Assembly: GCA_031271175.1 (NCBI GenBank)
Contig: JAISWE010000170.1
Location: 1 to 44,371 of the forward strand
Source of the DNA: Bacteroidales bacterium
Lineage (GTDB): Bacteria > Bacteroidota > Bacteroidia > Bacteroidales > UBA4181
Length of the DNA: 44,371 bases
Direction of reading: 5' to 3'
The position numbers and the translations under genes were made by a program. The notes under the pieces are model-generated. The model ran no database searches, was not told where the DNA came from, and was given only the letters and a program-made list of their open reading frames with translations. Shown piece after piece: positions 9,344 to 41,440 of this stretch. Positions within the stretch are counted from its first letter, which is position 1, and every line of letters begins with the position of its first letter.

Positions 9344-9362
9344 CTTTTTCTCCGTACCGGCA

Positions 9363-10139
9363 ATGCAAACCGTGATGATTGGCGCCGGCAATGTGGCCGT
9401 ACACCTGTCCAAAGCCTTGCAGGAAAAAGGAAATCCGGTCGTGCAGGTTTACAGTCGATCGGCGCCTTCGGCGGCCGCTCTCGCCGGAATGTTGGATACG
9501 GACTATACTACGTCCGTACGGGAACTTCGACGCGATGCGGAGCTTTATGTCATGGCCGTCAGCGATGATGCCGTGCCGGAAGTATTATCGACGCTGCCCC
9601 TAACGGAGCAACTGATTGTCCACACCGCCGGCAGTGTTCCGATAGGAGTTTTTGATAAAAAAATGCACAATTATGGGGTGCTTTATCCGTTACAGTCTTT
9701 TTCGAAACAACATGCCGTTGACCTTTCCGGCGTCCCCGTTTTCTTGGAAGCCAATACGCCTTCCAATCTTAAAATCCTGTGGGACGTAGCCGAAAAAATA
9801 TTTTCCGAAGTATATGAAGCGACTTCCGAAAAACGGCTTCTGCTCCATGTGGCAGCCGTCTTTGCATCGAATTTTACCAACAGCCTGTACGGCGTGGCGG
9901 CACAACTGCTGCAAACATCCGGCTTTGCTTTCGACGTATTGTGTCCGTTGGTGATGGAAACAGCGCGCAAAGCCGCGGCTTCCGGCAATCCCGTCCATGT
10001 ACAGACCGGACCTGCCAGGCGCAACGACCAAAATGTGCTTTGCAAACATATCGAACTGCTGGCCGCTTATCCCCAATGGCAACAGCTGTATCTCCAACTG
10101 AGTGAAACTATTAAAAACCAGCACCGCGGTAAAGATTGA
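9363..10139 (+). CDS. Rossmann-fold oxidoreductase-like protein with DUF2520
   Basis: A 258-aa cytoplasmic protein conserved in Bacteroidota as 'Rossmann-like and DUF2520 domain-containing', often auto-named as an F420/NADP-dependent oxidoreductase. The N-terminal nucleotide-binding motif MIGAGNVAVHLSKAL (about 4-18) and the strand DAELYVMAVSDDAV are visible. The DUF2520 half contains GVLYPLQSFS and HVAAVFASNFTNSLYG, which resemble ketopantoate-reductase-like C-terminal helices. It follows the GH57 gene by 19 bases on the same strand and may be read from the same transcript. Its stop is only 9 bases from the stop of the convergent plug-like gene. The substrate is unknown. Confidence 0.85.
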   Translation: MQTVMIGAGNVAVHLSKALQEKGNPVVQVYSRSAPSAAALAGMLDTDYTTSVRELRRDAELYVMAVSDDAVPEVLSTLPLTEQLIVHTAGSVPIGVFDKKMHNYGVLYPLQSFSKQHAVDLSGVPVFLEANTPSNLKILWDVAEKIFSEVYEATSEKRLLLHVAAVFASNFTNSLYGVAAQLLQTSGFAFDVLCPLVMETARKAAASGNPVHVQTGPARRNDQNVLCKHIELLAAYPQWQQLYLQLSETIKNQHRGKD

Positions 10140-10148
10140 AATGATGAT

Positions 10149-25423: not shown

Positions 25424-26425
25424 ATGAGACACCCCCATCCGATATTATCGAAACAAATCCGGAAGCCGGTGTATCTGTTTGCCGCGTGGCTGTTCCTCCA
25501 TGCGGGGAACAGCGCAGGACAGCAATCCCCTGTCTATAGCCAGTACATGCTCAACGGATTTGTGATCAATCCCGCTATGGCCGGAGCAGACGGACGGCTC
25601 AGGGTGGGCGTATCGGTGCATGACTATCTGATGGGGATGAAAAATGGGCCGAAGACCATCAGCGCCAGCGCCAGCGGTCGTTTGCTCATGTCGAAATCAA
25701 AGGTGTCCAGCGGAAAATATATCCGCGGAAGAAGCGGGAAAGTCGGAATGGGCGGATTGGTTTTCAGCGATTGCAACGGTTTGGTAAGGCGCGTAGGATT
25801 GCAGTATTCCTATGCATACCATGTGGACGTAAACACCGCACGTACGGCGCAGTTGTCGTTTGGACTGTCGGTAGCCCTTTCCCAGACAAGCATCGATTCA
25901 AAATCACTGGAATTTCACGATCCCGAACCGCTCTTGACGAGCGGCTTCGGCAATCTGTCCTATGTACCCGACGCGGTACTGGGTGTTTTATATCGATACA
26001 AGGCTTATTATGTAGGCCTTACAGCGTCCAATCTTTTCCAGCGTTCCATTAATTTCGGAGAGTTCGACTATGATTATGTACTGTACCGTCATTTTTTCCT
26101 GCTTGCGGGCACTTCTTTCGAAGTAGGCAACAAATTCTCGTTCTCCCCTTCGCTTCTTGCCAAAATGACATCCAACAGCGTTTATCAGGCGGAAATTGCC
26201 GCTCAAGTCTCCTACAAGGAAGATGTGTGGCTGACGCTGGCCTATCGCACCCCAGACATCGCTTCCCTGATGGTCGGATTCCGCGCCGGGAAAGTGTTTA
26301 TCGGTTATGCCTACGAATACAATTTCAGCGTTGTCCGTACTTTCAGTAAAGGCAGTCAGGAAATTTCCCTTCTCTACCGGATAGGAGACCCTGTCCGACG
26401 CTATAAATGGGGAACAAGGTTTTGA
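25424..26425 (+). CDS. PorP/SprF family outer-membrane protein
   Basis: A 333-aa outer-membrane beta-barrel protein of the PorP/SprF family, which helps export and surface-anchor type B T9SS cargo. A signal peptide is followed by the family start QQSPVYSQYMLNGFVINPAMAG (SQYMLNGFVINPAMAG at 39-54). Alternating hydrophobic strands continue to the end, with VGLTASNLFQRSINFG typical of the middle. It starts 2 bases after the stop of the SprB-repeat gene, so the two are almost certainly co-expressed and work together. No terminator directly follows; the first one downstream is at 26786-26820. Confidence 0.92.
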   Translation: MRHPHPILSKQIRKPVYLFAAWLFLHAGNSAGQQSPVYSQYMLNGFVINPAMAGADGRLRVGVSVHDYLMGMKNGPKTISASASGRLLMSKSKVSSGKYIRGRSGKVGMGGLVFSDCNGLVRRVGLQYSYAYHVDVNTARTAQLSFGLSVALSQTSIDSKSLEFHDPEPLLTSGFGNLSYVPDAVLGVLYRYKAYYVGLTASNLFQRSINFGEFDYDYVLYRHFFLLAGTSFEVGNKFSFSPSLLAKMTSNSVYQAEIAAQVSYKEDVWLTLAYRTPDIASLMVGFRAGKVFIGYAYEYNFSVVRTFSKGSQEISLLYRIGDPVRRYKWGTRF

Positions 26426-26503
26426 AAAAGCCCGAAACCATTTCGATTCTATTTCAAATAAATTTTATTTTTTGCACTTTTAAGAATTATTAACACTAAA
26501 AAT

Positions 26504-26534
26504 TTGCAAAATGCGTTTTTATGTTGTATATTTG
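26504..26534 (+). promoter_or_regulatory. Bacteroidota-type promoter upstream of the GA microsatellite
   Basis: TTG 26504-26506, exactly 20 bases, TATATTTG 26527-26534: a full match to the consensus. Transcription would start near 26541 and read into the (GA)23 tract. No convincing gene follows directly. Confidence 0.7.
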
Positions 26535-26667
26535 CAGCATCAAATTTTGTTCGAACCTTATCATGTGCAATAGTTGTCTTTTTATCAAAAAAACGTCCGA
26601 AAATGCGGAATTTTCCCATCAGGTGAAATCTGTATGGAATGCAGGCCATGTATGGTTTGGTACGGTT

Positions 26668-26721
<54 letters not shown>

Positions 26722-26740
26722 AGCAGACCAAATATATTTA

Positions 26741-26751
26741 CGCGCGCGCGC
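26741..26751 (+). repeat. (CG)5 alternating tract
   Basis: Eleven alternating C/G bases, 24 bases after the GA tract, in an otherwise AT-rich region. Alternating CG can adopt Z-DNA under supercoiling; no function can be shown here. Confidence 0.85.
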
Positions 26752-26785
26752 AAGGTAAGAACTTTTTTTCAAAGTTTGTATATAT

Positions 26786-26820
26786 GCCGCAACATGTTTT
26801 TTGCATGGAGCGGCTTTTTT
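26786..26820 (+). terminator. Intrinsic terminator between the GA tract and susC
   Basis: GCCGC 26786-26790 pairs with GCGGC 26810-26814. Inside it CATG 26793-26796 pairs with CATG 26804-26807 across a 2x2 internal loop. The stem is followed by six T (26815-26820). It would end the short transcript from 26541 and any read-through from the PorP/SprF gene. Confidence 0.65.
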
Positions 26821-26989
26821 ATTGTTCCTGTTCCAAATTTAAATGTTTTGGACGGTATGATGCGTATTTATTTGGCCTGTTGGAATATGCGCCTGAACTG
26901 CCGGAGGGTATTCCCAAAGTCCGCCATTCATTCAAACATTCTTAACGGTTTTTTAATAATGGTGTAACTGAAAAGAAATACGGGTGCCA

Positions 26990-26997
26990 TAGTTTTG
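26990..26997 (+). promoter_or_regulatory. Likely promoter (-7 element) of the Sus operon
   Basis: TAGTTTTG matches TAnnTTTG and lies 67 bases before the susC start, downstream of the terminator at 26786-26820. The -33 region offers only CTG (26968-26970), so an activator may be needed. No sigma/anti-sigma or hybrid two-component gene lies near the operon. Confidence 0.5.
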
Positions 26998-27064
26998 TAG
27001 CAAAAAATCAAATGAATATATGAAGATAAAGAATTAATATTAAGCAAAATAAAATAAAATCAAC

Positions 27065-30000
27065 ATGAATCAAAAGAGAAAACAAATCGTTCACTGGAAC
27101 GAAAGGCGAAAAATGATAATAGGATACCTATCCATTTGTTTTTGGATTTTTGGTATGTGCGGGATCGCCTTTCCCGCCAATGCAGCCGATGGGGAGCAAT
27201 CGTTACAACCCCCGCGTACGGTTACGGGAACCGTATCCGATCATACCGGCGAGCTAATGCCCGGAGTGAATGTCGTTATTCGAAGTACGACGACAGGGGT
27301 AGTAACCGATAGAAACGGGGAATTTACAGTCAATGTTCCAGCCGATACTTCGGTCTTGCAGTTCAGTTTTGTCGGTTATCAGAAGCAGGACGTTATTGTA
27401 GGCGCAAGGCGCGTGATCGCCGTCACCTTGAACGAAGAGGCGGCCAAATTAGACGAAGTGACGATCGTAGCTTTTGGAAAGCAAAAGAAAGAAAGCGTAA
27501 TTGCTTCCATCGAAAGCGTCAGGATGTCGGATTTGAAACAGCCTTCCTCGAATCTTACCAGCGCTTTTGCCGGTAAGATACCCGGATTGATCTCCTATCA
27601 AACCACCGGCGAGCCGGGTGAAGACCTTGCCCAGTTCTTTGTGCGCGGGGTGACGACCTTCGGATACAAGCAGTCGCCTTTGATCCTCATTGACGGCTTT
27701 GAAGCCAGCGCTACCGATCTGGCGCGCATACAGCCGGACGATGTGGAAAGCTTTTCCGTACTGAGGGATGCTTCGGCAACGGTACTGTACGGGGCAAGGG
27801 GCGCCAACGGCATCATTCTGGTCAATACAAAGGCAGGACGCGAAGGACCGGTAAAACTCAACGCCAGAGTGGACATGCACGTGGCAACGCCCACCCGGAT
27901 ATTGGAAATGCTGGATGCGGTGGACTACATGAAACTGTACAATCAGGCGCGTATGACAAGGAATCCGGGACTGGGCGCCTATTACAGCGAACAGAAAATC
28001 CATTCCACCATGATAGGCAAAGACCCGATGATCTATCCCAATATTGACTGGTACGCGACCCTGTTCAAAAACTACACCATCAATACAAAAGCCAATATCA
28101 ACGTATCGGGCGGCGGACAGGTAGCCAATTATTACGTATCCGGCGGTTATGACAATGAAACGGGATTGCTGAAAGTGAACGGACAAAACAATTTCAACAA
28201 CAACATCAATATCGACCGGTTTCATGTCCGTACCAACGTCGTCTTCAAACTCTCGCCCAGCACCTCGCTGGACACCCGCATTCAGGGACGGTTCGAAACT
28301 TATACGGGGCCGTACGTTGCTACAACAACCCTGTTCAATGAAGTCATGAACGCCAATCCTGTCGATTTTCCCGCCGTGTATGAACCGGACGAGGGACATC
28401 GCTATGTGGAACATGTCCTTTTCGGCAGCCAGTATTCCGGCGGCAGTGCAGCCACCAATCCTTATGCCCAAATGGTCAGGGGATACGAAGAACGGAATGA
28501 AACCACCATCAACACGCAGGTAACGTTGATGCAGGATCTGGAAATGATTACGAAAGGACTGAAAATACAGGCAAAAGCCTCTGCCAAGGTACGAAGCAAA
28601 TATTCCAGCAGAAGAACCTACTTGCCCTATTATTATACGGTAGATACCTACAATCCGATTACGGGCGATTACACGCTGATGTGTATCAATCCCACTTCCG
28701 GAAGGGCTTATCTTGGGAATGTGGAGCCGGGACGCGACGCCGACGGCCTGTATTATTTCGAAGCGCGTTTGAACTGGGATCGAAAATTCGGTAAACATGC
28801 CGTCGGCTTCATGACGGTAGGCATGGCCACTTCCTCCAATGCACAACTGGCCGATCTGGCTAATCTTACCATATACGAGGCGCTGCCGGAAAAAAATCTC
28901 GGCAATTCGAGCAGGCTTACCTATAATTATGATTCGCGCTATTTTATCGAACTTGCTTACGGATACAACGGTTCGGAAAAATTTACCGGAAAAAACCAGT
29001 TCGGATTCTTCCCTTCCGTTGGCGGCGGATGGCTGATTTCCAACGAGGACTTCTTTGCCTCGCTGAAAAATACGGTCAGCAACCTGAAACTGAAGTTTAC
29101 TTACGGTTGGGTGGGCAACGATGCCATTTCCTTACGCAGCGAACGGTTCTTCTTCCTTTCCGATATTACCAAAGGCGGAAGCGGTTATAATTGGGGAGAA
29201 TCGTTCAATCACAGCGAAGGTGGTTATACCATCAAACGTTACGCCAATCCCGACATCAGCTGGGAAGTTTCCGAAAAATACAACGCAGGTATGGAAATAG
29301 GCTTCTTCAAGGATGAGGCATTGAAACTGCAAGTGGATTTTTTCAGAGACATGCGCAACAATATTTATTTAACCAGAGAGACCATTCCCGCCACTGCCGG
29401 TTTTGAAGAAAAACCCAAGGGCAATGTAGGAAAAGCCTTATCGCGCGGCCTCGACGGATCGTTGGATTACCAGCAGAATTTCAACAAGGATTTCTGGCTG
29501 ACCGGACGCGCCAATTTCACCTATTCCACCAATAAATACGTGGAAAAAGACGAACCCGATTACGAAGACGAGTACCTCCAGTTCGTCGGTCAGAACCTTA
29601 ACCAGGGACGGGGATATGTAGCCGAGCGCCTTTTTGTGGACGACGCGGAAATAAAAAACGCCCCGTCACAGGCCTCGCTGGGCGAATATTCCGCCGGCGA
29701 CATCCGCTACAGGGACATCAATGACGACGGCGAAATAAACCTTAACGACCGTATCTTCATGGGATATCCCACCGTTCCCGAAATACAGTACGGATTCGGC
29801 GTGTCCGCAGGCTATAAAAATTTCGATTTCTCCTTCTTTTTTCAGGGAAATGCCAGAGTATCCTTTTTCATCAATTCGGGAACGGGTACGGGCATTGCGC
29901 CGTTTGTCGGCAGACGCAACGCCCTGAGCATTGTAGCAAGGGATGCATGGAGCGAAGACAAGCAAAACGTACATGCTTTCTGGCCACGGCTCACCGATCA

Positions 30001-30265
30001 GGTGATCGCCAACAACAGCCAGCAATCGTCGTGGTGGTTGCGCAACGGTTCCTTCCTGCGGCTGAAGTCCACCGAACTGGGCTATTCCCTGAGCGGATGG
30101 AAAGCGCTTCAGCTCATCGGCGCCCAGTCCGGCAGAATCTATTTCAGCACCGAAAACCTCTTTGTCTTCAGCCCTTTCAAGTTGTGGGACCCCGAAATGG
30201 GACAAAACGGACTTGCCTATCCGCTCAACAGGAGATTTAACATCGGCATACAGTTAAATTTTTAA
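27065..30265 (+). CDS. SusC-family TonB-dependent outer-membrane transporter
   Basis: A 1066-aa outer-membrane receptor, first gene of the Sus operon, importing a ligand captured by its SusD partner using TonB energy. The signal peptide ends near PANAADGEQ. A carboxypeptidase-D-like domain follows (about 54-135, TVTGTVSDHTGELMPGVNVV). The TonB-box region is LDEVTIVAFGKQKKESV. The plug domain has the SusC signature LYGARGANGIILVNTKAG (about 241-258). The 22-strand barrel ends in NRRFNIGIQLNF. No extra N-terminal signalling (STN) domain is seen, so it probably does not signal to an anti-sigma factor. The susD gene follows after 43 bases. Confidence 0.97.
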   Translation: MNQKRKQIVHWNERRKMIIGYLSICFWIFGMCGIAFPANAADGEQSLQPPRTVTGTVSDHTGELMPGVNVVIRSTTTGVVTDRNGEFTVNVPADTSVLQFSFVGYQKQDVIVGARRVIAVTLNEEAAKLDEVTIVAFGKQKKESVIASIESVRMSDLKQPSSNLTSAFAGKIPGLISYQTTGEPGEDLAQFFVRGVTTFGYKQSPLILIDGFEASATDLARIQPDDVESFSVLRDASATVLYGARGANGIILVNTKAGREGPVKLNARVDMHVATPTRILEMLDAVDYMKLYNQARMTRNPGLGAYYSEQKIHSTMIGKDPMIYPNIDWYATLFKNYTINTKANINVSGGGQVANYYVSGGYDNETGLLKVNGQNNFNNNINIDRFHVRTNVVFKLSPSTSLDTRIQGRFETYTGPYVATTTLFNEVMNANPVDFPAVYEPDEGHRYVEHVLFGSQYSGGSAATNPYAQMVRGYEERNETTINTQVTLMQDLEMITKGLKIQAKASAKVRSKYSSRRTYLPYYYTVDTYNPITGDYTLMCINPTSGRAYLGNVEPGRDADGLYYFEARLNWDRKFGKHAVGFMTVGMATSSNAQLADLANLTIYEALPEKNLGNSSRLTYNYDSRYFIELAYGYNGSEKFTGKNQFGFFPSVGGGWLISNEDFFASLKNTVSNLKLKFTYGWVGNDAISLRSERFFFLSDITKGGSGYNWGESFNHSEGGYTIKRYANPDISWEVSEKYNAGMEIGFFKDEALKLQVDFFRDMRNNIYLTRETIPATAGFEEKPKGNVGKALSRGLDGSLDYQQNFNKDFWLTGRANFTYSTNKYVEKDEPDYEDEYLQFVGQNLNQGRGYVAERLFVDDAEIKNAPSQASLGEYSAGDIRYRDINDDGEINLNDRIFMGYPTVPEIQYGFGVSAGYKNFDFSFFFQGNARVSFFINSGTGTGIAPFVGRRNALSIVARDAWSEDKQNVHAFWPRLTDQVIANNSQQSSWWLRNGSFLRLKSTELGYSLSGWKALQLIGAQSGRIYFSTENLFVFSPFKLWDPEMGQNGLAYPLNRRFNIGIQLNF

Positions 30266-30308
30266 CGATAATGCAATATCAAGAATAAAACATTTCAAAT
30301 ACAATACC

Positions 30309-32270
30309 ATGAAAACATTCGATAAAATAGGTAAAATAGGAATTTTGACGGGGATCGTTTTCCTCTTTCCGGCTTGTGATTTTCTGAATGTCGTGCCGGA
30401 CAATACCCTGAAACTGGAAAATATTTTTTCCGTGAAAGACGAAGCATGGAGCGCTTTGGCAAAAGTGTACAGCTACATGCCGCGCGACGCCAACATGCAC
30501 GATACGGAATACTGGCTGGGCGATGAATACGTCACTCATGCCAATTCCACAAACGTTGCGACTTCTTACCGAAGTAACAGGATCATGCGGGGGCTGCAAT
30601 CTTACTCAAGCCCGCTGCTGGGATACTGGTCAGGCTCCAACGGCGCGCCGCCGCTGTATCAGGGAATCAGAAGCGCCAATATCTTTCTGGAATACATTGA
30701 CGGCGTGATGGACATGACTTTTCAGGAAAAGGCGGAATGGGCCGCGCAGGTAAAATTCCTGAAAGCCTACTATACTTTCCTGCTGGTACGCAATTACGGG
30801 CCGGTGGTGATCGCCGACGAAGCGGTAGCGCCCGACGCCATGGGACAGGAGTTTTATCAGGAGCGCGTCAAAGTGGAAGACTGTTTCGACTTTATCATCC
30901 GGCTGATGAACGAAGCCATTCCGGAAATCAACGAAAAGCAAAGTTCGCTGGACTACGGACAGATTGACCGCGTAGGCGCCATGGCCATCAAAGCAAGGAT
31001 AATGCTCTACAGGGCAAGCCCTTTCTTCAATGGCAACAGCGAATATTTCGGCGATTTCTTCGACCACGACGGCAAGCATTTCTTCCCGCAAAACGCCAAA
31101 AGGGAAAAATGGGAAGACGCGCTGCAAGCCATAGAAGACGCCTTGCAAATCGCCAACCGAAACATGAAGGACCTTTATACCTACGAACGATCGCCCTATG
31201 TTTACGACCGCGAAGACTGGGATTTCGATCAGGCAAGAATGCAGACCCTCTACGATTTAAGGATGCTGATAGTGGACAAATGGAACAAGGAACTCTTGTG
31301 GGGGCTTTCCAACCTGCCGGCGATGACCTCCACCGTGTGTTCCGAAACGAATATCCGCCTGCCTTCGGGCTACTCCGGCGGCGGAGTGGCGCTTAACTAT
31401 ACGGGAAGCCAGCAACGGGTAGGGGCTAGCTATGCCATGGTAGAGCGCTACTATACCAAAAACGGACTGCCAATAGAGGAAGACCTCACTTTCGACAAAA
31501 GCGCCATGTACAACATCCTTACCATGCCCGGTCCGCTTGACGTCGAATATGATCCGTACAAAGGCCTGATGCAGGCCGGCGTGCAGACCATTCAACTTTA
31601 TTTGGACAGGGAACCCCGTTTTTACGCCAATCTGGGACTCACCGGCGGATACTGGCGCGCGCATTCGGCAAGAATCAGAACCACTTTTTTCCGCGAAGGA
31701 CCCGGTGGTAATGACGCCAGTACTTCCAATTGGATCGCCTCCTCCATCGGAGTACAGAAATTTGTGCATCCCGAATCGACTTCCGGCAGCGCCGCACGAA
31801 TCGTCAAATTCCCCTTCCCCATCATCCGCATGGCAGACCTCCTGCTGATGAAAGCGGAAGTCATGAACGAACTCTACGGGCCATCGCCGGAAGTATATGA
31901 GTGCATCAACCGCGTCCGACGCAGAGCAGGTATTCCCGATGTGGAAACCGTTTGGAGCGATCCCACCCTGACAAGAAACGTCGATAAGCACAAAGACCCC
32001 GAATGGCTGAGGGACATTATCCTGAGGGAAAGAAGCATCGAATTTGCTTTTGAAGGTCTCAGGCACTGGGACATGCTGCGATGGAGACGGGCGCCGCAGG
32101 AATTTTCCAATTCCGCCATGGGATGGAACCATCGCGCTACCACGCCGGAAACGTTTTTTACCCTCCAACCGGTAGAGTACAGAAAATTTAAGGTCAAAGA
32201 CTGTCTGTGGCCTATCCCTCTCAGCGAATTGAACATCAACAACCGGCTGATACAAAATCCGGGATGGTAA
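30309..32270 (+). CDS. SusD/RagB-family surface glycan-binding-type lipoprotein
   Basis: A 653-aa surface lipoprotein forming the lid over the SusC transporter. Signal peptide with lipobox FPAC (C23). The family start DFLNVVPDNTLKLENIF, the middle WAAQVKFLKAYYTFLLVRNYGPVVI (about 144-168) and the C-terminal RERSIEFAFEGLRHWDMLRW and LWPIPLSELNINNRLIQNPGW are classic SusD landmarks. At 653 residues it is longer than many SusD proteins (about 500-600). The ligand cannot be read from sequence; SusD proteins bind glycans but also other polymers. It sits directly between susC and the accessory lipoprotein genes. Confidence 0.97.
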   Translation: MKTFDKIGKIGILTGIVFLFPACDFLNVVPDNTLKLENIFSVKDEAWSALAKVYSYMPRDANMHDTEYWLGDEYVTHANSTNVATSYRSNRIMRGLQSYSSPLLGYWSGSNGAPPLYQGIRSANIFLEYIDGVMDMTFQEKAEWAAQVKFLKAYYTFLLVRNYGPVVIADEAVAPDAMGQEFYQERVKVEDCFDFIIRLMNEAIPEINEKQSSLDYGQIDRVGAMAIKARIMLYRASPFFNGNSEYFGDFFDHDGKHFFPQNAKREKWEDALQAIEDALQIANRNMKDLYTYERSPYVYDREDWDFDQARMQTLYDLRMLIVDKWNKELLWGLSNLPAMTSTVCSETNIRLPSGYSGGGVALNYTGSQQRVGASYAMVERYYTKNGLPIEEDLTFDKSAMYNILTMPGPLDVEYDPYKGLMQAGVQTIQLYLDREPRFYANLGLTGGYWRAHSARIRTTFFREGPGGNDASTSNWIASSIGVQKFVHPESTSGSAARIVKFPFPIIRMADLLLMKAEVMNELYGPSPEVYECINRVRRRAGIPDVETVWSDPTLTRNVDKHKDPEWLRDIILRERSIEFAFEGLRHWDMLRWRRAPQEFSNSAMGWNHRATTPETFFTLQPVEYRKFKVKDCLWPIPLSELNINNRLIQNPGW

Positions 32271-32310
32271 CAAGTTTTAAATATGAATGTTAATATAAAA
32301 TCAAAATAAA

Positions 32311-33585
32311 ATGAAGACGATCAAAAAATATATTTGCCTGATGGCTGTCGCGCTGACGGCTTTGCAGTCATGCAGAGAAGAAGGACGTTTTGAATTGTAC
32401 TCCGGCGATACCGTAGCGCCCGGAAAACCCACCATCATTGACTGGGAACCGTTTTTCGGCGGGGTAATCATCTATTTTCAACCCTCCGACGACGAAGACC
32501 TGCTCAGTATCAATGCCGAATATACCAACGTCAACGGCAGAACTTTCAGTTTTGCTGCTTCCTATTTTACCAACGCCATCACGGTCAGTTGTATGGGAAG
32601 CACCGACCCGCATACGGTGAGGGTGTATGCCATGGACCGGACGGGCAACAAATCCGAGGCCGTTCCGGTCATCGTTCGACCCGACGAACCCATCGTACAG
32701 CGGGTGGCTTCTACCGTTTCCGTGAAACCGGCTTTCGGCTCCTTTATGGTGGAATGGGTCAACGGACTGATGGCCGACGTGAATGTCTATGTCGATTTCA
32801 GTTTCACCCAAAACGGAATACCGAAAAGTTTTACGCAGGTTTTTTCTTCCAGCGACGACTCCGTCAGAATGTTTGTAGAAAATCTGGACTTGACCCATTC
32901 CGAACCGGTGACGGTGCGGGCGCGCGTGGAAGATTATTACGACAACAGCTCTGTAGTGGTGGAGCTGGGGCAAATCATTTTGCTGACGGACGAACTGCTG
33001 CCTAAAGCCGGCTGGTCGCTGCCCGATACCAAAACCGAAATCGGCGGCGTCCCGCAATGCTTCGGCGACTCCTACGAAGGCAAACTGCGCTTCGTGATCG
33101 ACGACATCATCGACGAAGGCTTTATCTATAATTACATGCATACCGGAAGCAGAGGCTACAACGGCAATGCCGACGACGGCAACCTCCCGTGGAATGTCCT
33201 GATCGACCTGGGCGACTATTACGAGTTGAGCCGTATCATCACCCACCAGCGCCACTATGCGGAAACCCTGCTGGAAAGAGGACAATATTATCAGGACGAA
33301 AACGTAGGCATATACAATATGTATATCTGGGACGAAGACCTGCAGCAGTGGGACTTCGTTTCCCAGCGGAAAATCCCCATTCCCAACACGGGCAATCTGG
33401 TTGAACTGCTCCAGAAAGCCAGAGCGGGAGACTTCGCCTATCTCTATCCGGATGAACCGAAATACACCAAACCTACCCGATGGTTCAGGTACGAAGCGGT
33501 GGTCGGTTTTGCCAACGATTATACCAGTATTCTGGCTACTTCCCTGTCGGAAATAACCCTTTACGGACGAAAAGTCAATCGCTGA
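32311..33585 (+). CDS. Surface lipoprotein, DUF4959/DUF5126/DUF5000-like
   Basis: A 424-aa lipoprotein (lipobox LQSC, C21; acidic residues follow the Cys, as in Bacteroidota surface-export signals). The layout fits the common Sus-operon accessory family: fibronectin-like N-terminal module (TVAPGKPTIIDWEPFFGGV, about 33-120), a second module (about 125-235) and a discoidin-like C-terminal domain (about 240-424) with WNVLIDLGDYYELSRIITHQ and EITLYGRK. Such proteins are thought to be surface ligand-binding partners. It follows susD by 40 bases and precedes the DUF4998-like gene by 34 bases, so it belongs to the same operon. Domain names are recalled from the family pattern and should be confirmed with profiles. 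Confidence 0.82.
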   Translation: MKTIKKYICLMAVALTALQSCREEGRFELYSGDTVAPGKPTIIDWEPFFGGVIIYFQPSDDEDLLSINAEYTNVNGRTFSFAASYFTNAITVSCMGSTDPHTVRVYAMDRTGNKSEAVPVIVRPDEPIVQRVASTVSVKPAFGSFMVEWVNGLMADVNVYVDFSFTQNGIPKSFTQVFSSSDDSVRMFVENLDLTHSEPVTVRARVEDYYDNSSVVVELGQIILLTDELLPKAGWSLPDTKTEIGGVPQCFGDSYEGKLRFVIDDIIDEGFIYNYMHTGSRGYNGNADDGNLPWNVLIDLGDYYELSRIITHQRHYAETLLERGQYYQDENVGIYNMYIWDEDLQQWDFVSQRKIPIPNTGNLVELLQKARAGDFAYLYPDEPKYTKPTRWFRYEAVVGFANDYTSILATSLSEITLYGRKVNR

Positions 33586-33619
33586 ATTATTTTATCTATC
33601 ACCAATAAAATCAAGTAAA

Positions 33620-34330
33620 ATGAAACACCTGTTATTATACGGTTCGATATTATTCCTCGCCTTTTCCTGTAGCAAGATGGGCGACAATATCTATGATCAC
33701 GCTTCGGACGAAAGAATCTATCCGGGCATGTTCGAAATTGCCATGCCGCGCGTCGGATTCGAAAGAGTAGAAATCGACCTGATGCAAGCGGGACGAATAC
33801 CGGCAAGCATGATGAAAATGGGCACCGCTCAAAAAACCGTGGTAGAATACGACAACACCGTTATCGTGATCGATTCGCTCTGTTCATGGGTGAACATCAC
33901 CGGACTGACCCAGTCGAAAACCTACCGGTTTTACGTCTATACCATCGACAAGTACGGCAACAAATCCGTGAAAAGAACGCCTTCCGCCGTCCCTTACCTT
34001 AACGAGGATTTGGAACTCCTCAAGATCCCCACACCCGTAGTGACCTACGCCGATAACGGCCTTACCGTATCGGCCGACATCAACTGGCCAGAGGGATTAA
34101 GCTCGGTAATGATGTACTACATCGGGCTAACCTATTCCTATACCGATGCGGACGGATTGCCCCGAAACGGCGACCGGGCAGGTAATCCGCTCTTTACGGC
34201 GGAAAACCTTCCCAAAGGAGAAGATGTGACGATCAGCATGAAATATGATATTGTCCCCATCATCTCGAACACGGCGCTCAGGGATACCCTGCAACTGATC
34301 AAACCCCTGATCATCCATACTCCGGAATAA
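33620..34330 (+). CDS. Small lipoprotein, DUF4998-like
   Basis: A 236-aa lipoprotein (lipobox LAFSC with C17, signal peptide 1-16). It looks like the DUF4998 family that accompanies DUF5000 proteins in Sus operons: CSKMGDNIYDHASDERIYPG after the Cys, a fibronectin-like domain with VRVxxYxxDxYGNKS-type strand pattern (RFYVYTIDKYGNKSVKR, about 111-127), then a second beta module to the end. No enzyme motif is present. It probably helps bind the ligand at the surface. Confidence in the exact family is moderate; its class as an accessory surface lipoprotein is firmer. Confidence 0.7.
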   Translation: MKHLLLYGSILFLAFSCSKMGDNIYDHASDERIYPGMFEIAMPRVGFERVEIDLMQAGRIPASMMKMGTAQKTVVEYDNTVIVIDSLCSWVNITGLTQSKTYRFYVYTIDKYGNKSVKRTPSAVPYLNEDLELLKIPTPVVTYADNGLTVSADINWPEGLSSVMMYYIGLTYSYTDADGLPRNGDRAGNPLFTAENLPKGEDVTISMKYDIVPIISNTALRDTLQLIKPLIIHTPE

Positions 34331-34372
34331 CGAATAGTGAATAACGAATAATGAATAGTGAACAATTAAAAA

Positions 34373-35938
34373 ATGAATAATATGAAAAACAGTTGGTTCA
34401 AATGTGTCATACTGCCGGTGGCAGTGATGATATCTGCTGCATGTTCCGAAAAGAACGAAGAAAAGTTTGTATCCGTCAATACGGAAAAGCTCGTTTTCAA
34501 CTATCTGGCTTCTTCTCAAGCATTCAAACTGCTTACCAACGGGGAATGGAGCGTGAGTTTGACGGAAGGCGGCGATTGGCTTTCCCTGCCGGTAACTTCC
34601 GGCGTTGGCAAAGGCAGCGAAAAGGAAATTCTGGTGCAGATATACGCTTTAGGGAACGACGGTTTGCCGCGTTCGGGAAAACTGGCGCTCCACGCTGCCG
34701 AAAAAGACATTGAGATAGCGATAGAGCAGGAAGGATCGGGAGGCATTGCCTTCCAAACGCCTACGCTGACCGCTTTTCTGCAAACGGGAACAGCCATTGA
34801 GGACATCTACCTTAAAATTCCCTACCGAAAGGCGCTGGGCAGCGAATCTTTTTCCGTCTCCGTAACGGTAGCGGGCGCCGGTGCAGCCGGCATCAACGAC
34901 ATCGACGACTTTCCGGTGACCATCGGAAGTGTGTCGGGCAACATTTCCGTACCGCTCTCCGGAACGCCTCTCACAACGGGACAGGTGATTTTTACCATCC
35001 GTTCGTCCTATGCCGGTTATACCGGACAAACCTTAACCGCCGCAGTGATGGCAGATATTCCCCACTTTGAAGGGGCGATACTGATTTCGGGAATCATGCC
35101 CGACCCCAGAGGCACCGACGCCCCTGCCACGGGTGCCAGCGCCACCTTCGCCAACCCCACCATGGGAGGAGCCAGCGTACATGCAGGGCCATACGAATAC
35201 ATACAGTTCATAGCGCTGGAAAATATTGACTTCTCCATTACGCCCTATGCCGTGGTAATCTGCAATAACCTTGTGGGCAGCGGCGCTCAGGAAAACGGAT
35301 GGGCCACCGGAGGCTCCAAAACATACAAATTCAACCTCACGCAGGGGCAAGTGACTACAGGCGAATTTTTCTACGTGGGAGGAACGGCAAAATCACTCAA
35401 CGGATACAACACCTGCGGCATCGTGGACATCAGCCATGCCAAATGGATACGCACCATCGCCTACAACAATCCGGGCGTCACCGGCGACGGCTTCGGCGCG
35501 CAAACAGGCGGAGTGATGAGTAATTTTACGACCGCCAACCGGAGTTTTTCCGGTATCGCCGTCTTCAAGGGTATCAACGTCACCAAAAATACGGTGCCGG
35601 TGGACGCCGTCTTCTTCGGCAATAAAACGGACGACGGATATAACGAACTCAACGACTGGGGATACCTCATCCCCAAAAACGACTTCTACCAGCCGGTCAA
35701 CCCGGACGATCAGTCGGAACAGCGCATGTTCATGAAAGGAACCAACACCCGCTTCTTTTACGGGCCAACCGGTACCGACATCAGCGATTACGCCATGCTG
35801 GGAGGCACCCTGAACAGCAAAAAACAGTGGCTGCTACCCCGATCGCTTACTTCCAAAGTAATGACGCCCTGTCAGGAAATGTCCTATTCCCTGCTCGACA
35901 TCGAAAGCGGCCCAGGCGTTACCCAATTCATCCACTAA
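34373..35938 (+). CDS. BACON-domain lipoprotein 1 with unassigned C-terminal domain
   Basis: A 521-aa surface lipoprotein (lipobox SAAC, C24; CSEKNEEK matches the acidic export signal). ATG 34382 is an alternative start. Residues about 30-125 are a BACON domain (LVFNYLASSQAFKLLTNGEWSV, then IEQEGSG). Residues about 130-228 are a Calx-beta-like module (KIPYRKALGSESFSVSV). From about 234 to 515 a domain begins GAILISGIMPDPRGTD and contains EYIQFIALENIDFS, YKFNLTQGQVTTGEFFYVGG and KWIRTIAYNNPG; it resembles a lamin-tail (LTD) fold, but I cannot assign it. The same domain is the C-terminus of the gene at 37859. It overlaps no gene; the phosphoesterase starts at the base after its stop. Confidence 0.8.
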   Translation: MNNMKNSWFKCVILPVAVMISAACSEKNEEKFVSVNTEKLVFNYLASSQAFKLLTNGEWSVSLTEGGDWLSLPVTSGVGKGSEKEILVQIYALGNDGLPRSGKLALHAAEKDIEIAIEQEGSGGIAFQTPTLTAFLQTGTAIEDIYLKIPYRKALGSESFSVSVTVAGAGAAGINDIDDFPVTIGSVSGNISVPLSGTPLTTGQVIFTIRSSYAGYTGQTLTAAVMADIPHFEGAILISGIMPDPRGTDAPATGASATFANPTMGGASVHAGPYEYIQFIALENIDFSITPYAVVICNNLVGSGAQENGWATGGSKTYKFNLTQGQVTTGEFFYVGGTAKSLNGYNTCGIVDISHAKWIRTIAYNNPGVTGDGFGAQTGGVMSNFTTANRSFSGIAVFKGINVTKNTVPVDAVFFGNKTDDGYNELNDWGYLIPKNDFYQPVNPDDQSEQRMFMKGTNTRFFYGPTGTDISDYAMLGGTLNSKKQWLLPRSLTSKVMTPCQEMSYSLLDIESGPGVTQFIH

Positions 35939-37774
35939 ATGCATCCCGCCATGAACCGACGTAAATTCTTGCTTTATCTTTTCCTGTACTGGATCGGCAT
36001 AGTCAATATCTTGGTCGGCTGCGGAAAAAAAGAAGACGACATTCCCGAAGAAAAGCCCGACGACAACGGGAACAACAACGGGAACAATAACGGAACGGGA
36101 GAAGAAAAACTGATCGAAAACGCTTCCATTCCGTCTTCCCTGAACGTAACCGCCGGCGACAGCCTGACCGTTAACGGCGTCGGGTTCCTGGCCGGCGACA
36201 AGATCAAAATCACGCTCTCGCTCGACGGACGGCAAAACTACTTGTGCGAAGTGACTGCCGTAACACCCAATTCCGCCACGATCACAGTGCCGGACATGGA
36301 TTCGGGCAGGTACAATTTCGTACTGGTGAGAGGCGACAAAACCGCACCCATCGGCACCTCCACCCTGACCGTCACCTTCACCGACTGCCACGGACGGATC
36401 ACCGATACCGGCGGAAACCCCGTGCAGGGAGTAGTAGTCAGCGACGGCTATTCCTGTGTGCGGACGAATGCAGACGGACGATGGAATCTCACGAAGCACG
36501 ACAACGCCAAATTCATCTTCTATTCCGTGCCGGAAACCCATGAAGTCAATGTCGCCGCCGGCAGCAACGCCGCACTGTTTTATGCGTCCATCGATAATCC
36601 CACACAGTTTAATTTCACCCTGAAACCGCTGCCGGCAGTAGAAAACGAATTTACCCTGCTGGCTATCGGCGACCCGCAGGTAGCCTCCGCCGCAGACGTA
36701 ACGCGATTTACCAACGAAACGATGGCAGACCTGAAAACGCTGATCAATGCTTCCGACAAACCGTGCTACGGACTGTACATGGGCGATATGGTGGCGGATC
36801 ATCCGGAACTGTTCGCACAAATGAAAAATGTGACCGGCTCCTCCAAGATGATCTATTTTACCACCATCGGCAACCACGACAAAACGGGAGGCTCCGCAAG
36901 CGTTCCCCGTAATGCCGACCAGTTCTGTTCCGTCTTCGGACCGCTCGACTATTCCTTCAATCGCGGCAACATCCATTTCGTATGTCTGGATAACGTGATC
37001 TACACCAATAAAGACACCTACACCGCCGGCTTTGAAGACCGCCAGATAGAATGGCTGCGGCAAGACCTGAGTTTTGTGCCGAAAAGCAAAACCGTCATCG
37101 TGTACTATCACATCCCTATCCGGAACAGCAATTACAAAAACCGGACAGCCCTGCTCAACCTGCTGAAGCCTTTTGCCAAAGCGCACCTCATGTGCGGCCA
37201 TACCCACTATACCGAGCATTTCGACATCACTTCGCCCTTGACGGTGCATGAGTTTATCCATGCCGCCGCCTGCGGAGCGTGGTGGAAATCAACCGTCAAC
37301 GGCGACGGCACACCCAACGGATACGCCGTGTACGATGTAGTGGGAAGCGAACTGGACAACTGGTACTACAAATCCACCCGCTACAGCAAAAATTTCCAGA
37401 TCAGGATGCACTGGGGCGATGATGCTTTCGGAGGATCTCACGGAACCTTCTCCTACGGACAGGGGCACAAAATCGTCGCCAACGTGTTCAATGCCGATGC
37501 CGGATGGACTGTCAAAGCCTACGAAGACAACGTGTTTGCCGGCAACCTCGTCAAAATAGCCACCACCAAGGACGAATGGGCAAGAGGATACCATATAGGC
37601 GTGCTGAACCGCAATCCGGACAATTACAGCCCCAATAACAAGCATGCCTATCTCCATACGCTTGTCAACCCTGCTGCCACTACCATCGAAATACGGGCAA
37701 CCGACCGTTTCGGAACTGTGTACTCGCAAACCGAAATTATCCGTAATCTGACCACCGCAGCATCCTACCAATAG
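35939..37774 (+). CDS. Calcineurin-like metallophosphoesterase lipoprotein
   Basis: A 611-aa surface lipoprotein (lipobox LVGC, C28, followed by KKEDD) and the only enzyme in the Sus operon. ATG 35951 (MNRRKFLLYLF) may be the true start. Asn/Gly-rich linker (about 36-55), IPT/TIG-like domain (about 58-145), a carboxypeptidase-D-like MetallophosN module (about 148-232), the phosphoesterase core (about 238-455) and a C-terminal beta domain (MetallophosC-like). Metal-site motifs: IGDPQ (D245; Gln247 stands where DxH enzymes have His), GDMVAD (D283), IGNHD (N312, H313), YYHIPI (H391) and CGHTH (H421, H423). Its substrate is a phosphate ester or diester of unknown identity. Confidence 0.88.
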   Translation: MHPAMNRRKFLLYLFLYWIGIVNILVGCGKKEDDIPEEKPDDNGNNNGNNNGTGEEKLIENASIPSSLNVTAGDSLTVNGVGFLAGDKIKITLSLDGRQNYLCEVTAVTPNSATITVPDMDSGRYNFVLVRGDKTAPIGTSTLTVTFTDCHGRITDTGGNPVQGVVVSDGYSCVRTNADGRWNLTKHDNAKFIFYSVPETHEVNVAAGSNAALFYASIDNPTQFNFTLKPLPAVENEFTLLAIGDPQVASAADVTRFTNETMADLKTLINASDKPCYGLYMGDMVADHPELFAQMKNVTGSSKMIYFTTIGNHDKTGGSASVPRNADQFCSVFGPLDYSFNRGNIHFVCLDNVIYTNKDTYTAGFEDRQIEWLRQDLSFVPKSKTVIVYYHIPIRNSNYKNRTALLNLLKPFAKAHLMCGHTHYTEHFDITSPLTVHEFIHAAACGAWWKSTVNGDGTPNGYAVYDVVGSELDNWYYKSTRYSKNFQIRMHWGDDAFGGSHGTFSYGQGHKIVANVFNADAGWTVKAYEDNVFAGNLVKIATTKDEWARGYHIGVLNRNPDNYSPNNKHAYLHTLVNPAATTIEIRATDRFGTVYSQTEIIRNLTTAASYQ

Positions 37775-37778
37775 AATG

Positions 37779-37827
37779 AATAATTAATAATTAATAATTA
37801 ATAATTAATAATTAATAATGAATAATA
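37779..37827 (+). repeat. Heptamer tandem repeat (AATAATT)5 plus two variants
   Basis: Five perfect copies of AATAATT followed by AATAATG and AATAATA, in the 84-bp gap between the phosphoesterase and the second BACON gene. A related degenerate stretch with GAATAATGAATAGTGAA lies at 34332-34372, before the first BACON gene. Confidence 0.9.
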
Positions 37828-37858
37828 AATAAAATGTAAAACTTTAATTTTAAATGCT

Positions 37859-39925
37859 ATGAAAACCAATTTTAAACAAGCCCTTGCGATTCTTGCAGTC
37901 GTATTTGGGGGAACGGCTTGCGACGACAAAGCCGAAAACCAACTGGAAAGCCAGATCGAAATCAGTACGGCGTCCATGACTTTTGAACACGAAGGCGGCG
38001 ATTTACCGCTTGACGTCTCATCCAATGCCGATTGGACAATAGACAAAAGCGGATGCGTCTGGGTAACGGTGAACACGCTTGCCGGCACAGGCGACCAAAC
38101 CCTTACCGTCACAGCGTCGCGCAACGCGGGCGCGCACCGCACAGGCAAACTTGTCCTGCTCGCCGGCGACAAATCGAAAGAAGTAAGCATCACTCAGTAT
38201 TCCGCCGTGCTGTCATTCGGCGAACCTTCCGTATCGGGCGTGTTGAAATCCAACCTCTCCATTGACGAGGAAACCTGTCTGGTCATTCCCTATTCGGGAG
38301 GCATCGGCAACGAAACGTTTACCGTTTCCGTTGTCACGTCCGCTGCCGGTATTAACGCCGTCAGCGATTTTGTGGTGACCCTTACTACGCCGGCAGGCGA
38401 AATTTTCGTCCCCTTGTCCGGCGTACCGGCGACGGCAGGCGAGGTGACTTTCTCCATTACTACGAACTACGCCAACCCTACCACCGGCACGATTCTTACC
38501 ATTCCCGCATTGCAGGCAACCATAGAAATCGGCGCCACGCTCGTTGTCGGCGAGCTGTCGCTGTCGGACAACCTGACCTACACCAAATCCGTCGGCAACA
38601 GTCTCATCCTGAGCCTGCCTTATGAAGACGCGCTGGGTGTAGAAAACTTTACGCTGTCGGTAGCGGTGAGCGGCGTTGCTGCGCCCGGCATTACCACAGA
38701 CGCTACCGTTGACGTCGCCATTTCCCAGCCCGGCAACGGAACCATCGAAATACCCGTTAGCGGCATACCTTACAAGGCGGGACAGGTGACCTTTACCGTT
38801 ACGGGCGACAATGCCGCTAAAACCTTTACGCTCGACGCCGCCGAGATCAACAAGAGCGTGAACGCAACGGTCGCCGACGACGGCAAGCGCTACTATAACG
38901 GCGCCTTCGTCATCTCCGGCGTAATGGGAGACCCCAGAGGAACAGACGGCACTGTTGCCGGCGCCGCCGCTACCTTTTTCAACCCCGACATGAACAACCT
39001 CAAGCAACATGCCGGTCCTTGCGAATACATGCAGTTTCTGGCGCTGGAAGAGATCAACTTCTCCCAAACGCCCTACTGCGTCATCGTGTGCAAAATGACC
39101 GATCCCAACGGGCCAACCGCCGACGGATGGACAGAAGGCGGCGGCAAAACCTTTAAATTCAACCTGACGGAAGGAACGGTGTCCAAAGGAGAATTTTTCT
39201 ACGTGGGCGGCGCTGCCAAGACGCTCAGCGGATACCGCGACGACGCTGCAAGTAAACCTGCTGACTGGCCTCATGTGTCGGTCGGCATCATGAGCATTCG
39301 GGATTCCAAGTGGATACGGGCGCTTACGTATGCCAACAATCCCTTTACCTTCGATGATGGGATCGGTAGTCGCACCACCGATATGTTCTACAATTACACT
39401 GCTTCGGCACTGCGTTTTAACGGCATTGCGGCATTCAAAGGCACTGTCGTCGATAAAAACACCGTTCCGATGGATGCCCTCTTCTTCGGCACCAACAATA
39501 GTTTTGCCTATAATGCTGATATGCCGAGCAGTTACCTGACCGTGCCGCTGAACGACCTGTACAGTCCGGTGGAGGGACATTACGGACAGGGTACGAATAC
39601 CGTCCTGCTTACCTCAGTTTATACTTCAGGAGCTGCCGATCACGGCGAATTTATGAAATTCGGCGGCCGGCTGGGAATCGACGGTAACAACAACAAGGTT
39701 TGGTTGCAAACGAGAGATATCACATGTATCTCTCTGGGAGATCCGGGCATGTATATCGGATCGCCCAATAATACTACACTGGCAGAAAACAAGTATGATC
39801 CGGCCAAGGAGAACGAACCCAATCCGCACTTTCCCGGCGACGATCGTTACACCAAGCGTTTGGCAACGATAGCGGATATTGAGACCTTCGGCGACGGCAT
39901 CACCGCCATCGTGGATCAGCCGTAA
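37859..39925 (+). CDS. BACON-domain lipoprotein 2, paralogue of the first
   Basis: A 688-aa surface lipoprotein (lipobox GTAC, C21, then DDKAEN). BACON domain at about 28-120 (MTFEHEGGDLPLDVSSNADW). Two consecutive Calx-beta-like modules at about 122-228 and 232-338 (LVIPYSGGIGNETFTVSV and LSLPYEDALGVENFTLSV), where the first paralogue has one. The C-terminal domain (about 348-688) matches that of the gene at 34373: GAFVISGVMGDPRGTDG, EYMQFLALEEINFS, FKFNLTEGTVSKGEFFYVGG, KWIRALTYANNP, NTVPMDALFFG. It is the last gene of the operon; a strong terminator starts 25 bases after the stop codon. Function unknown, probably ligand binding. Confidence 0.8.
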   Translation: MKTNFKQALAILAVVFGGTACDDKAENQLESQIEISTASMTFEHEGGDLPLDVSSNADWTIDKSGCVWVTVNTLAGTGDQTLTVTASRNAGAHRTGKLVLLAGDKSKEVSITQYSAVLSFGEPSVSGVLKSNLSIDEETCLVIPYSGGIGNETFTVSVVTSAAGINAVSDFVVTLTTPAGEIFVPLSGVPATAGEVTFSITTNYANPTTGTILTIPALQATIEIGATLVVGELSLSDNLTYTKSVGNSLILSLPYEDALGVENFTLSVAVSGVAAPGITTDATVDVAISQPGNGTIEIPVSGIPYKAGQVTFTVTGDNAAKTFTLDAAEINKSVNATVADDGKRYYNGAFVISGVMGDPRGTDGTVAGAAATFFNPDMNNLKQHAGPCEYMQFLALEEINFSQTPYCVIVCKMTDPNGPTADGWTEGGGKTFKFNLTEGTVSKGEFFYVGGAAKTLSGYRDDAASKPADWPHVSVGIMSIRDSKWIRALTYANNPFTFDDGIGSRTTDMFYNYTASALRFNGIAAFKGTVVDKNTVPMDALFFGTNNSFAYNADMPSSYLTVPLNDLYSPVEGHYGQGTNTVLLTSVYTSGAADHGEFMKFGGRLGIDGNNNKVWLQTRDITCISLGDPGMYIGSPNNTTLAENKYDPAKENEPNPHFPGDDRYTKRLATIADIETFGDGITAIVDQP

Positions 39926-39949
39926 GCGCGCCATACGACAAACTATCGG

Positions 39950-39990
39950 GCGGACAGGTATGGATATGACGTACTTGTCCGCTTTTTTTT
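39950..39990 (+). terminator. Intrinsic terminator of the Sus operon
   Basis: An 11-bp stem (39950-39960 with 39972-39982, one G-U pair), an 11-nt loop and eight T (39983-39990). It ends the plus-strand operon and overlaps the last codon of the convergent helicase gene. On the minus strand no T-run follows the stem. Confidence 0.92.
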
Positions 39991-41440
39991 ACGGTGATAA
40001 GCGGTCGTCTATGGACTGGGAAGAGCCGGTAAAAAATTGTTCGGGGAAATTGACTAAGTACAGTTTTTCCGTACTGCGGGTGAGGGCAGTGTATAACCAT
40101 CGCAGGTATTCCGGCGTTGTCCCGCTGTCATTGAACCAGCCCTGATCGAGAAAGATGCACTTCCATTGTCCGCCCTGCGCTTTGTGGCAAGTGACGGCAT
40201 AGGCAAACTTCACCTGAAGGGCATTGAAAAACGGATCCGTCTTTATTCTTTTTATTCTTTCCTTTTGGGGAGAGATATGTTCATAATCGCTTGCCACGGC
40301 ATCATAGAGTTGTCGATGCTGTTCCTCGCCGAGCGATGCGTTTTCGTTTGACAAGGTGTCCAGCAGGAGAACCGCCGAAAATTCCCGGTCGTGATAATCG
40401 GGCAAGGACAGTTCCACTTCGGCAAAACGGAACCCGTAACGCTCCGTATATTTGCGGATGCTCCGCACTTCGGCGATATCGCCGTTGGCGATGAAACTGA
40501 TTTCGCTCTCATCCTGTATCCAATAATAATTATTGCGTACAGCCATTAACAGGTCGCCGGGGGTCAGTTCTTCTTCCCGGTAGAGGATACGATTGCGGAT
40601 GCCCTGGTTGTAGCGGTTAGCCTGTTTGTTGGAACGGCAAACGATCATGGTCTCCTCCATTCCGTAGTGATCGTAAGCGTCGGAGATCGTTTCGATCAGT
40701 TCGTTGCCTGCAATACGGACAATGTCGGTGAAATTGCGCAGTTGCAACGTCGGGCAAGTCGTTTTAAATGTTTCCAACTGTTGCCTGACGATGGTTGCGT
40801 TGTACAGGATCCCCGACTCCTGCGACTGTCGCATCACTTCGGTGAGTTCATGCTGCCGCACCGTCAATCCGTATGCTTCTAATTGGCCGGCATCCAAAGC
40901 GGGGCTTTCGTCCTGTCCTACAGGCGGCAGTTGTGCGGTATCTCCAATCAGTATCAGGCTGCAATTCCGTCCGCTGAATACGAATGAGATCAAGTCGTCC
41001 AACAGGCATCCGCTGCCGAAATAACTGCGGTCTGCGCTGTAGCGGGAAATCATGGAGGCCTCGTCCACAATAAAAAATGTATGGCTGCAAGCGTTGAAAT
41101 TAAGCGTGAACCGTCCCCAAGCATCGTTGGCCGACTGTTGCCGGTAAATTTTCTTGTGGATGGTAAAAGCTTGCCGACCGGAATAAGTACTCAGCACTTT
41201 GGCAGCCCTTCCGGTAGGCGCCATCAATACGGAGGGAATCCCGAAATGCGACAGGGTATGGATAAATGCCGATATGACAGAGGTCTTCCCCGTGCCGGCG
41301 TAACCTTTGATCAGCATCACCGAGCGGTGACCGGGATTTACCATCATCTCCGCAAGCGACTCCATCACCCTCTTTTGTCCTTCCACCGGTTCTAACTTCA
41401 AATACCGGAGGAACATTTCAATAATATGATTTTTCAGCAT
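39989..41440 (-). CDS. RecD-like SF1B DNA helicase
   Basis: A 483-aa cytoplasmic ATP-dependent helicase of the RecD/Dda (AAA_30 plus UvrD_C_2) type, usually annotated in Bacteroidales as 'ATP-dependent RecD-like DNA helicase'. Walker A is GYAGTGKTS (46-54), motif Ia MAPTGRAAKVL, Walker B FFIVDEAS (D126-E127), motif III LIGDTAQLPPVGQD, and the C-terminal motifs KFAYAVTCHKAQGGQW and WLYTALTRSTEKLYLVN. It lacks the N-terminal HhH region of RecD2. It is divergent from the pilin-like/DUF3822/rsmD genes (82-bp gap), a neighbourhood conserved in many Bacteroidales. Likely role: DNA repair or recombination. Confidence 0.93.
   Translation of the reverse strand: MLKNHIIEMFLRYLKLEPVEGQKRVMESLAEMMVNPGHRSVMLIKGYAGTGKTSVISAFIHTLSHFGIPSVLMAPTGRAAKVLSTYSGRQAFTIHKKIYRQQSANDAWGRFTLNFNACSHTFFIVDEASMISRYSADRSYFGSGCLLDDLISFVFSGRNCSLILIGDTAQLPPVGQDESPALDAGQLEAYGLTVRQHELTEVMRQSQESGILYNATIVRQQLETFKTTCPTLQLRNFTDIVRIAGNELIETISDAYDHYGMEETMIVCRSNKQANRYNQGIRNRILYREEELTPGDLLMAVRNNYYWIQDESEISFIANGDIAEVRSIRKYTERYGFRFAEVELSLPDYHDREFSAVLLLDTLSNENASLGEEQHRQLYDAVASDYEHISPQKERIKRIKTDPFFNALQVKFAYAVTCHKAQGGQWKCIFLDQGWFNDSGTTPEYLRWLYTALTRSTEKLYLVNFPEQFFTGSSQSIDDRLSP

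Follow-up and report, generated by a model that had tools for sequence, protein, structure and literature searches.

A conserved Sus-type operon of Bacteroidales with a phosphoesterase as its only enzyme: a candidate system for glycerophosphodiester capture

SusCD systems are nearly always interpreted as glycan importers. The operon described here, found in a stretch of 44,371 nucleotides (the window) from the genome of a gut-type Bacteroidales bacterium (G000), raises the question of what such a system takes up when a phosphoesterase is the only enzyme encoded in it. Gene content, conservation, enzyme phylogeny, gene neighbourhoods and predicted folds are the basis for reading it as an outer-membrane system of the Sus type for the capture of phosphodiesters, with glycerophosphodiesters or phospholipid head groups as the most likely ones, and this reading is given a probability of about 0.58. 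We infer the substrate, the surface location, the place of cleavage and the link to glp genes dispersed in the genome.

Layout and conservation of the operon

Seven genes were located at positions 27065-39925 from the list of open reading frames and Pfam/NCBIfam matches, with SusC first and a terminator last. The C-terminal domain common to both BACON proteins is named LTDx here.

27065-30265, + strand: SusC-type TonB-dependent transporter (TIGR04056, 946 bits; 84-87% identical to the SusC of two same-genus genomes)
30309-32270, + strand: SusD-type lipoprotein (PF07980, E 4e-47)
32311-33585, + strand: DUF4959-DUF5126-DUF5000 lipoprotein (Pfam; DUF5000 below cut-off)
33620-34330, + strand: DUF4998-like lipoprotein (weak Pfam match, 19 of 29 bits, below cut-off)
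34373-35938, + strand: BACON-like lipoprotein (BACON weak, E 0.024) with C-terminal LTDx domain (35063-35935)
35951-37774, + strand: TIG-MetallophosN-Metallophos-MetallophosC phosphoesterase with lipobox LVGC and RR-x-F motif (Pfam; listed frame from 35939)
37859-39925, + strand: BACON lipoprotein (E 2.7e-9) with C-terminal LTDx domain (38891-39922)
39948-39990, + strand: intrinsic terminator of the operon (15-pair hairpin and T-run), touching the end of a convergent gene at 39989-41440

The initial annotation had proposed a seven-gene operon running from SusC to a terminator, which is borne out by these frames and by the hairpin with its T-run. It had also stated that glycoside hydrolases, lyases and sulfatases are absent, and the Pfam/NCBIfam scan agrees, with no CAZyme, lyase or sulfatase among the seven operon genes. 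The adjacent SusC and SusD genes mark a Sus-type outer-membrane nutrient uptake operon, while a PUL, taken as at least one CAZyme or sulfatase beside SusCD, is recognised neither in this operon by Pfam/NCBIfam nor in its two sister copies. Likewise, the Pfam domains leave the phosphoesterase as sole enzyme, placed as claimed between the two BACON paralogues, whose C-terminal parts are 49% identical. The lipoboxes noted in all six products after SusC can be read in each as lipobox-like motifs (FPAC, LQSC, AFSC, SAAC, LVGC and GTAC), some of them weak, and these products look like lipoproteins. The gap that separates the phosphoesterase gene from the second BACON gene contains a tandem AT-rich repeat of taataatta units (37777-37830).

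The identical seven-gene order occurs in two further genomes of the same genus, complete in G007 (L025/L045) and cut by a contig end in G005 (L026/L044). The isolate codes of these MAGs resemble those of bins from insect-gut metagenomes. As the same genes recur in the same order, the arrangement is not due to chance. The SusC/SusD type of the window differs from that of most LTDx loci. Outside the genus, the LTDx locus with the closest SusC (45% identical) is L060, a phospholipase C locus whose DUF4959/DUF4998-type SusCD is the closest to that of the window among LTDx loci outside the genus, and the window SusC is equally close (48%) to an own-genome SusC from a locus with a GH5-like protein.

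The phosphoesterase and the LTDx domain

The phosphoesterase more probably begins with the second ATG at 35951 (MNRRKF) than with the first codon of the listed frame (35939). Its N-terminal RR-x-F motif, also found in most of its relatives (consensus MNRRxF), suggests export by Tat. In addition to TIG, the PF16371-PF00149-PF16370 architecture scored 71, 34 and 110 bits, each exceeding its cut-off. The metal-site motifs (D-x-H/Q, GD, GNHD, H and GHTH) are intact, the first being DPQ and not DxH, as in most of the family. The predicted structure (pLDDT 86.6) matched GpdQ and Rv0805 best in its catalytic domain, tied at Z 22.7 (218 residues and rmsd 2.6 for GpdQ), followed by purple acid phosphatases at Z 19.9; Z values to purple acid phosphatase, phytase, PhoD and acid sphingomyelinase structures were 17-20. 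The metal motifs are like those of GpdQ, the glycerophosphodiesterase of Enterobacter aerogenes (3d03), except for DxQ in place of DxH, whereas the window enzyme is only about 18% identical to it and carries added MetallophosN and MetallophosC domains and a lipoprotein signal. The predicted fold match to GpdQ leaves the substrate unfixed. Against PDB sequences, the profile of the phosphoesterase gave weak matches to purple acid phosphatases, Rv0805 and GpdQ, favouring the purple acid phosphatases, and the single sequence gave no match. In the tree, the window enzyme falls into a clade of six (SH-aLRT 99) with those of L044, L045, L051, L052 and L058, all of them LTDx-linked. L051 (same genus) and L052 (Proteiniphilum) sit in glycerol-phosphate operons, and the next relative beyond the clade, L143 (G017), has GlpT alongside.

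Comparison of 44 LTDx members with Pfam-A at E 1 gave no match in convincing number, and the DUF4876 and lamin-tail models matched none of them, which rules out a known Pfam lamin-tail domain at the sequence level. The LTDx profile found nothing among PDB sequences, Foldseek alone gave no match for LTDx, and the sole PDB match of the full BACON protein was a GH16 chain, aligned through the BACON region. An AlphaFold model built from the 44 sequences (pLDDT 90.8, pTM 0.92) was compared using VIA-align, and the DUF4876 protein BT_1938 (4q1z) ranked top with Z 9.6 over 196 residues. It was followed, after DUF4876, by eleven lamin entries, with lamin-tail domains at Z 6-7. LTDx is thus predicted to adopt a lamin-tail/DUF4876-like fold, for which Z values near 8-10 are modest and the ranking is consistent. 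The likeness is one of predicted fold, whereas sequence similarity is undetectable and DUF4876 loci are iron-linked. Since DUF4876-TonB loci are induced by iron (PMC10434189), the LTDx domain need not mean phosphorus. The domain is rare: apart from this genome, 5 of about 390 in the order and 6 of 395 sampled across the phylum encode it. A literature search, mostly of papers outside subscription, returned no description of LTDx or of SusCD-glp loci.

Gene neighbourhoods and candidate substrates

A scan of genome contigs yielded 72 LTDx loci across Bacteroidota, and their neighbours were annotated by homology. SusC was present in 69, SusD in 70 and the phosphoesterase in 53, while GDPD occurred in 35, GlpT and GlpD in 17 each, GlpK in 12 and a DeoR/GlpR-like regulator in 11. 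At least one glycerol-phosphate gene (GDPD, GlpT, GlpD, GlpK, GlpF or G1P dehydrogenase) was found in 40 of the 72 loci and two kinds in 21, counts that are not independent because the loci come mostly from one family, Sphingobacteriaceae. The usual gene order was GlpD-GlpK-GlpF-SusC-SusD-LTDx-PE-GDPD-GlpT (L102 and L066; PE, phosphoesterase), with GlpK and GlpT of L102 backed by equivalog matches. In the genus of the window, L027/L051 has the order GlpD-SusC-SusD-LTDx-PE-MFS-FAD oxidoreductase-EEP-MFS-GDPD-PE-G1P dehydrogenase-GlpT-HAD-GlpT. L054 and L060 each have a phosphocholine-specific phospholipase C scoring above the equivalog cut-off, and L080 and L092 have homologues. Further operonic genes included three PLD-like genes, three phosphodiester glycosidases and a few glycosidases of assorted families. 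Within Bacteroidales, glycerol-phosphate genes were present in L051, L052 and L090 and absent from the window, L044, L045 and L058. As a control, 20 MetallophosC loci of the order were picked regardless of LTDx. A glycerol-phosphate gene occurred within the retrieved stretch in 1 of these (GlpT, L172) against 34 of the 53 loci with phosphoesterase and LTDx (Fisher p 3e-6), a value that overstates independence, as the control is Bacteroidales only with several short stretches and the LTDx loci are mostly Sphingobacteriaceae.

The initial annotation had asked whether the phosphoesterase and BACON genes always travel with this SusC/SusD. The phosphoesterase and LTDx are usually together, but they accompany several SusCD lineages. 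CAZymes recurring in homologous loci, which it had named as evidence against its reading, were not encountered, the glycoside hydrolases among the further operonic genes of the 72 loci being few and of unrelated families. In two Pedobacter-type LTDx loci, GH36 alpha-galactosidase-like genes (L082, 13686-15833; L105, 13214-15349) apparently lie between GDPD and GlpT, a placing deduced for both melibiase matches from the order and lengths of the proteins, and they hint at galactosylated glycerophosphate as ligand at those loci. Low-complexity repetitive frames (RRKIP, GKLPMTI and ILGGTE units) were seen between HAD and GlpT genes at positions 2903-4984 of L032 (G003, contig C104).

In the own genome, contig C140 holds a cluster of GDPD, G1P dehydrogenase-like and GlpT genes, C138 carries another GlpT and C79 carries GlpD. 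Their identity to the genes of the L051 operon is 53-79%. The downstream pathway is therefore present, though unlinked. Among same-genus genomes, G1P dehydrogenase was found in G000, G003, G004, G005 and G008, with no match in the incomplete MAG G007, which has the operon. The G000 assembly (2.9 Mb, 80% complete) holds 57 SusC matches. One Sus operon, on C172 (L253, 5344-6684, - strand), carries a BACON lipoprotein fused to a GDPD domain (PF03009) and is possibly a second glycerophosphodiester system. Another, on C117 (L263), encodes a MetallophosNC enzyme (8266-10470) related to those of Sphingobacterium LTDx loci, then a gene with a neutral ceramidase match (PF04734; 16065-17993).

In the proposed mechanism, the surface lipoproteins (SusD, the DUF4959/DUF4998 proteins and the two BACON-LTDx proteins) would bind the ligand, the metal-dependent phosphoesterase would cleave it at the cell surface and SusC would take in ligand or product, driven by TonB. 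Products would then feed GDPD, the antiporter GlpT and GlpD, encoded elsewhere in the genome. With relatives beside genes that degrade membrane-lipid head groups, capture of glycerophosphodiesters is more likely than that of a sugar polymer. The phosphorylated ligand that had been suggested earlier is supported and narrowed to glycerophosphodiesters or head groups, since the operons of relatives also contain GDPD, GlpT, GlpD and GlpK and, in some cases, phosphocholine phospholipase C, while nucleic acid, inositol phosphate and phosphoglycan from the same suggestion are less favoured. Phosphate scavenging, put forward there as a possibility, is not supported over use of the ligand as a carbon source. 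However, the window operon itself is without a glp gene, so that the link runs via relatives and other contigs, and the phosphoesterase fold is common to cyclic-nucleotide PDE and purple acid phosphatases. The closeness of the window SusC to that of the GH5-like locus and the missing G1P dehydrogenase match in G007 also count against this reading.

An undescribed system in the strict sense, for which the operon had been named the best candidate, is not supported, because PusCD phosphate utilisation systems have been published (PMC8115612). PUSI of Flavobacterium (Fjoh_4168-4173) combines SusCD with phosphodiesterases, is induced at low Pi and has been suggested to import phosphodiesters, for example lipid head groups (PMC8115612). 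The window operon shares the gene content that defines PusCD there, SusCD with a phosphodiesterase or phosphatase and no CAZyme, the predicted phosphodiesterases of PUSI likewise standing beside the SusC/SusD pair instead of CAZymes, and would best be read as akin to these systems. In contrast, PUSI has PF00149 and PF16670 enzymes, an ECF sigma factor and low-Pi induction; the MetallophosN/C architecture, LTDx and glp genes go unmentioned in the accessible part of the PUSI description (PMC8115612). Together with its relatives, the operon points to a SusCD branch importing phospholipid-derived phosphodiesters, with LTDx, an undescribed lipoprotein domain of predicted lamin-tail fold, as a marker and sequence handle for finding such loci. 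Growth on glycerophosphodiesters, e.g. of cultured Pedobacter or Sphingobacterium, is predicted.

A tentative alternative, with a minor though appreciable chance, is that the target is a different polymer of phosphodiester or phosphomonoester type (teichoic acid, phosphoglycan, nucleic acid or inositol phosphates). The enzyme fold spans many substrates, as the structural matches listed above illustrate, phosphodiester glycosidase (NAGPA) genes are present in three of the LTDx loci and also in one Sus operon of the own genome that shares the leader, L027 encodes an Rbt/Dal-type MFS transporter, and glycerol-phosphate genes would serve teichoic acid breakdown equally. Phospholipase C, PLD-like and glycerol kinase/facilitator genes favour phospholipid-derived glycerol phosphate instead, and nucleoside or inositol catabolic genes were not seen recurring in the loci examined.

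It is improbable that the operon is an ordinary PUL with hydrolases encoded elsewhere, in which the phosphoesterase only strips phosphate decorations from a glycan. SusC/D PULs with DUF4959/DUF5000/DUF4998 proteins have a like set of transporter and accessory lipoproteins, own-genome SusCD operons of this type carry GH genes (C187, with GH5-like and MetallophosNC), a MetallophosC protein of B. thetaiotaomicron is near SusCD and glycosidase genes (BT0446-BT0454, PMC10434189), and GH36, GH43, GH95, GH106 or GH127 genes are near a few LTDx loci. Yet CAZymes, sulfatases and lyases are missing from the window operon, all three operon copies are without a CAZyme, and it is glycerol-phosphate genes that recur in LTDx loci, not the few GH genes of unrelated families. 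A system for metal, haem or another non-phosphorus ligand, with LTDx acting like the DUF4876 partners of TonB receptors and the phosphoesterase as an accessory, is very improbable. The top fold match to BT_1938 and the iron induction of DUF4876-TonB loci fit it, but LTDx is without sequence similarity to DUF4876, and the LTDx loci carry the phosphoesterase (53 of 72) and glycerol-phosphate genes (40 of 72).

The leader upstream of SusC

The operon is preceded by a leader (26495-26820) with a promoter-like site, about 130 conserved nucleotides, a GA array ((GA)17-25 across copies), a CG-rich stretch and a hairpin with T-run.

26503-26534, + strand: promoter-like site of Bacteroidota type (TTTG, 19 nt, TATATTTG) at the leader start (sequence reading; a sigma-70-type scan marks 26503-26532; conserved in own-genome leader copies)
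26671-26716, + strand: (GA)23 array (equivalent arrays upstream of SusC in L044 and L045)
26786-26820, + strand: terminator-like hairpin (GCCGC...GCGGC) and T-run at the leader end, before SusC (sequence reading; aligned with nine other copies, upper stems differing; absent from the automatic scan)

The segment before the array lies upstream of nine Sus-type operons of the own genome, those of the window, C172, C8, C19, C117, C69, C231, C174 and C40, with 78-100% identity (69 nt only in C40). The sequence of the hairpin copies varies with pairing mostly kept, and computed covariation is slight. Rfam gave no family over 26400-27100. Six of the nine leader operons encode phosphoester-acting enzymes, i.e. 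those of the window and C117, GDPD in C172, a purple-acid-phosphatase-like enzyme in C8, NAGPA in C19 and EEP in C40, while the same search detected such enzymes in four (C152, C187, C25 and C9) of about 40 other Sus units. The difference (Fisher p 0.001) is a lead and not a result, as part of the queries derived from the leader operons themselves, reading by eye supplied the enzymes of C8 and C40, and a large number of units are incomplete. It is rather unlikely, and offered as speculation, that Sus operons with MetallophosNC, GDPD, purple-acid-phosphatase-like, phosphodiester glycosidase and EEP enzymes form one phospho-substrate regulon through a shared transcribed leader (attenuation or antitermination), with the window operon as its glycerophosphodiester branch. 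A leader exclusive to phospho-operons is weakened as an idea by the remaining three leader operons, two of them cut by contig ends and that of C174 with only an FAD oxidoreductase, and by phosphoesterase Sus loci without a matching leader. In L044 and L045, the GA array stands at the same place and is preceded by a different segment.
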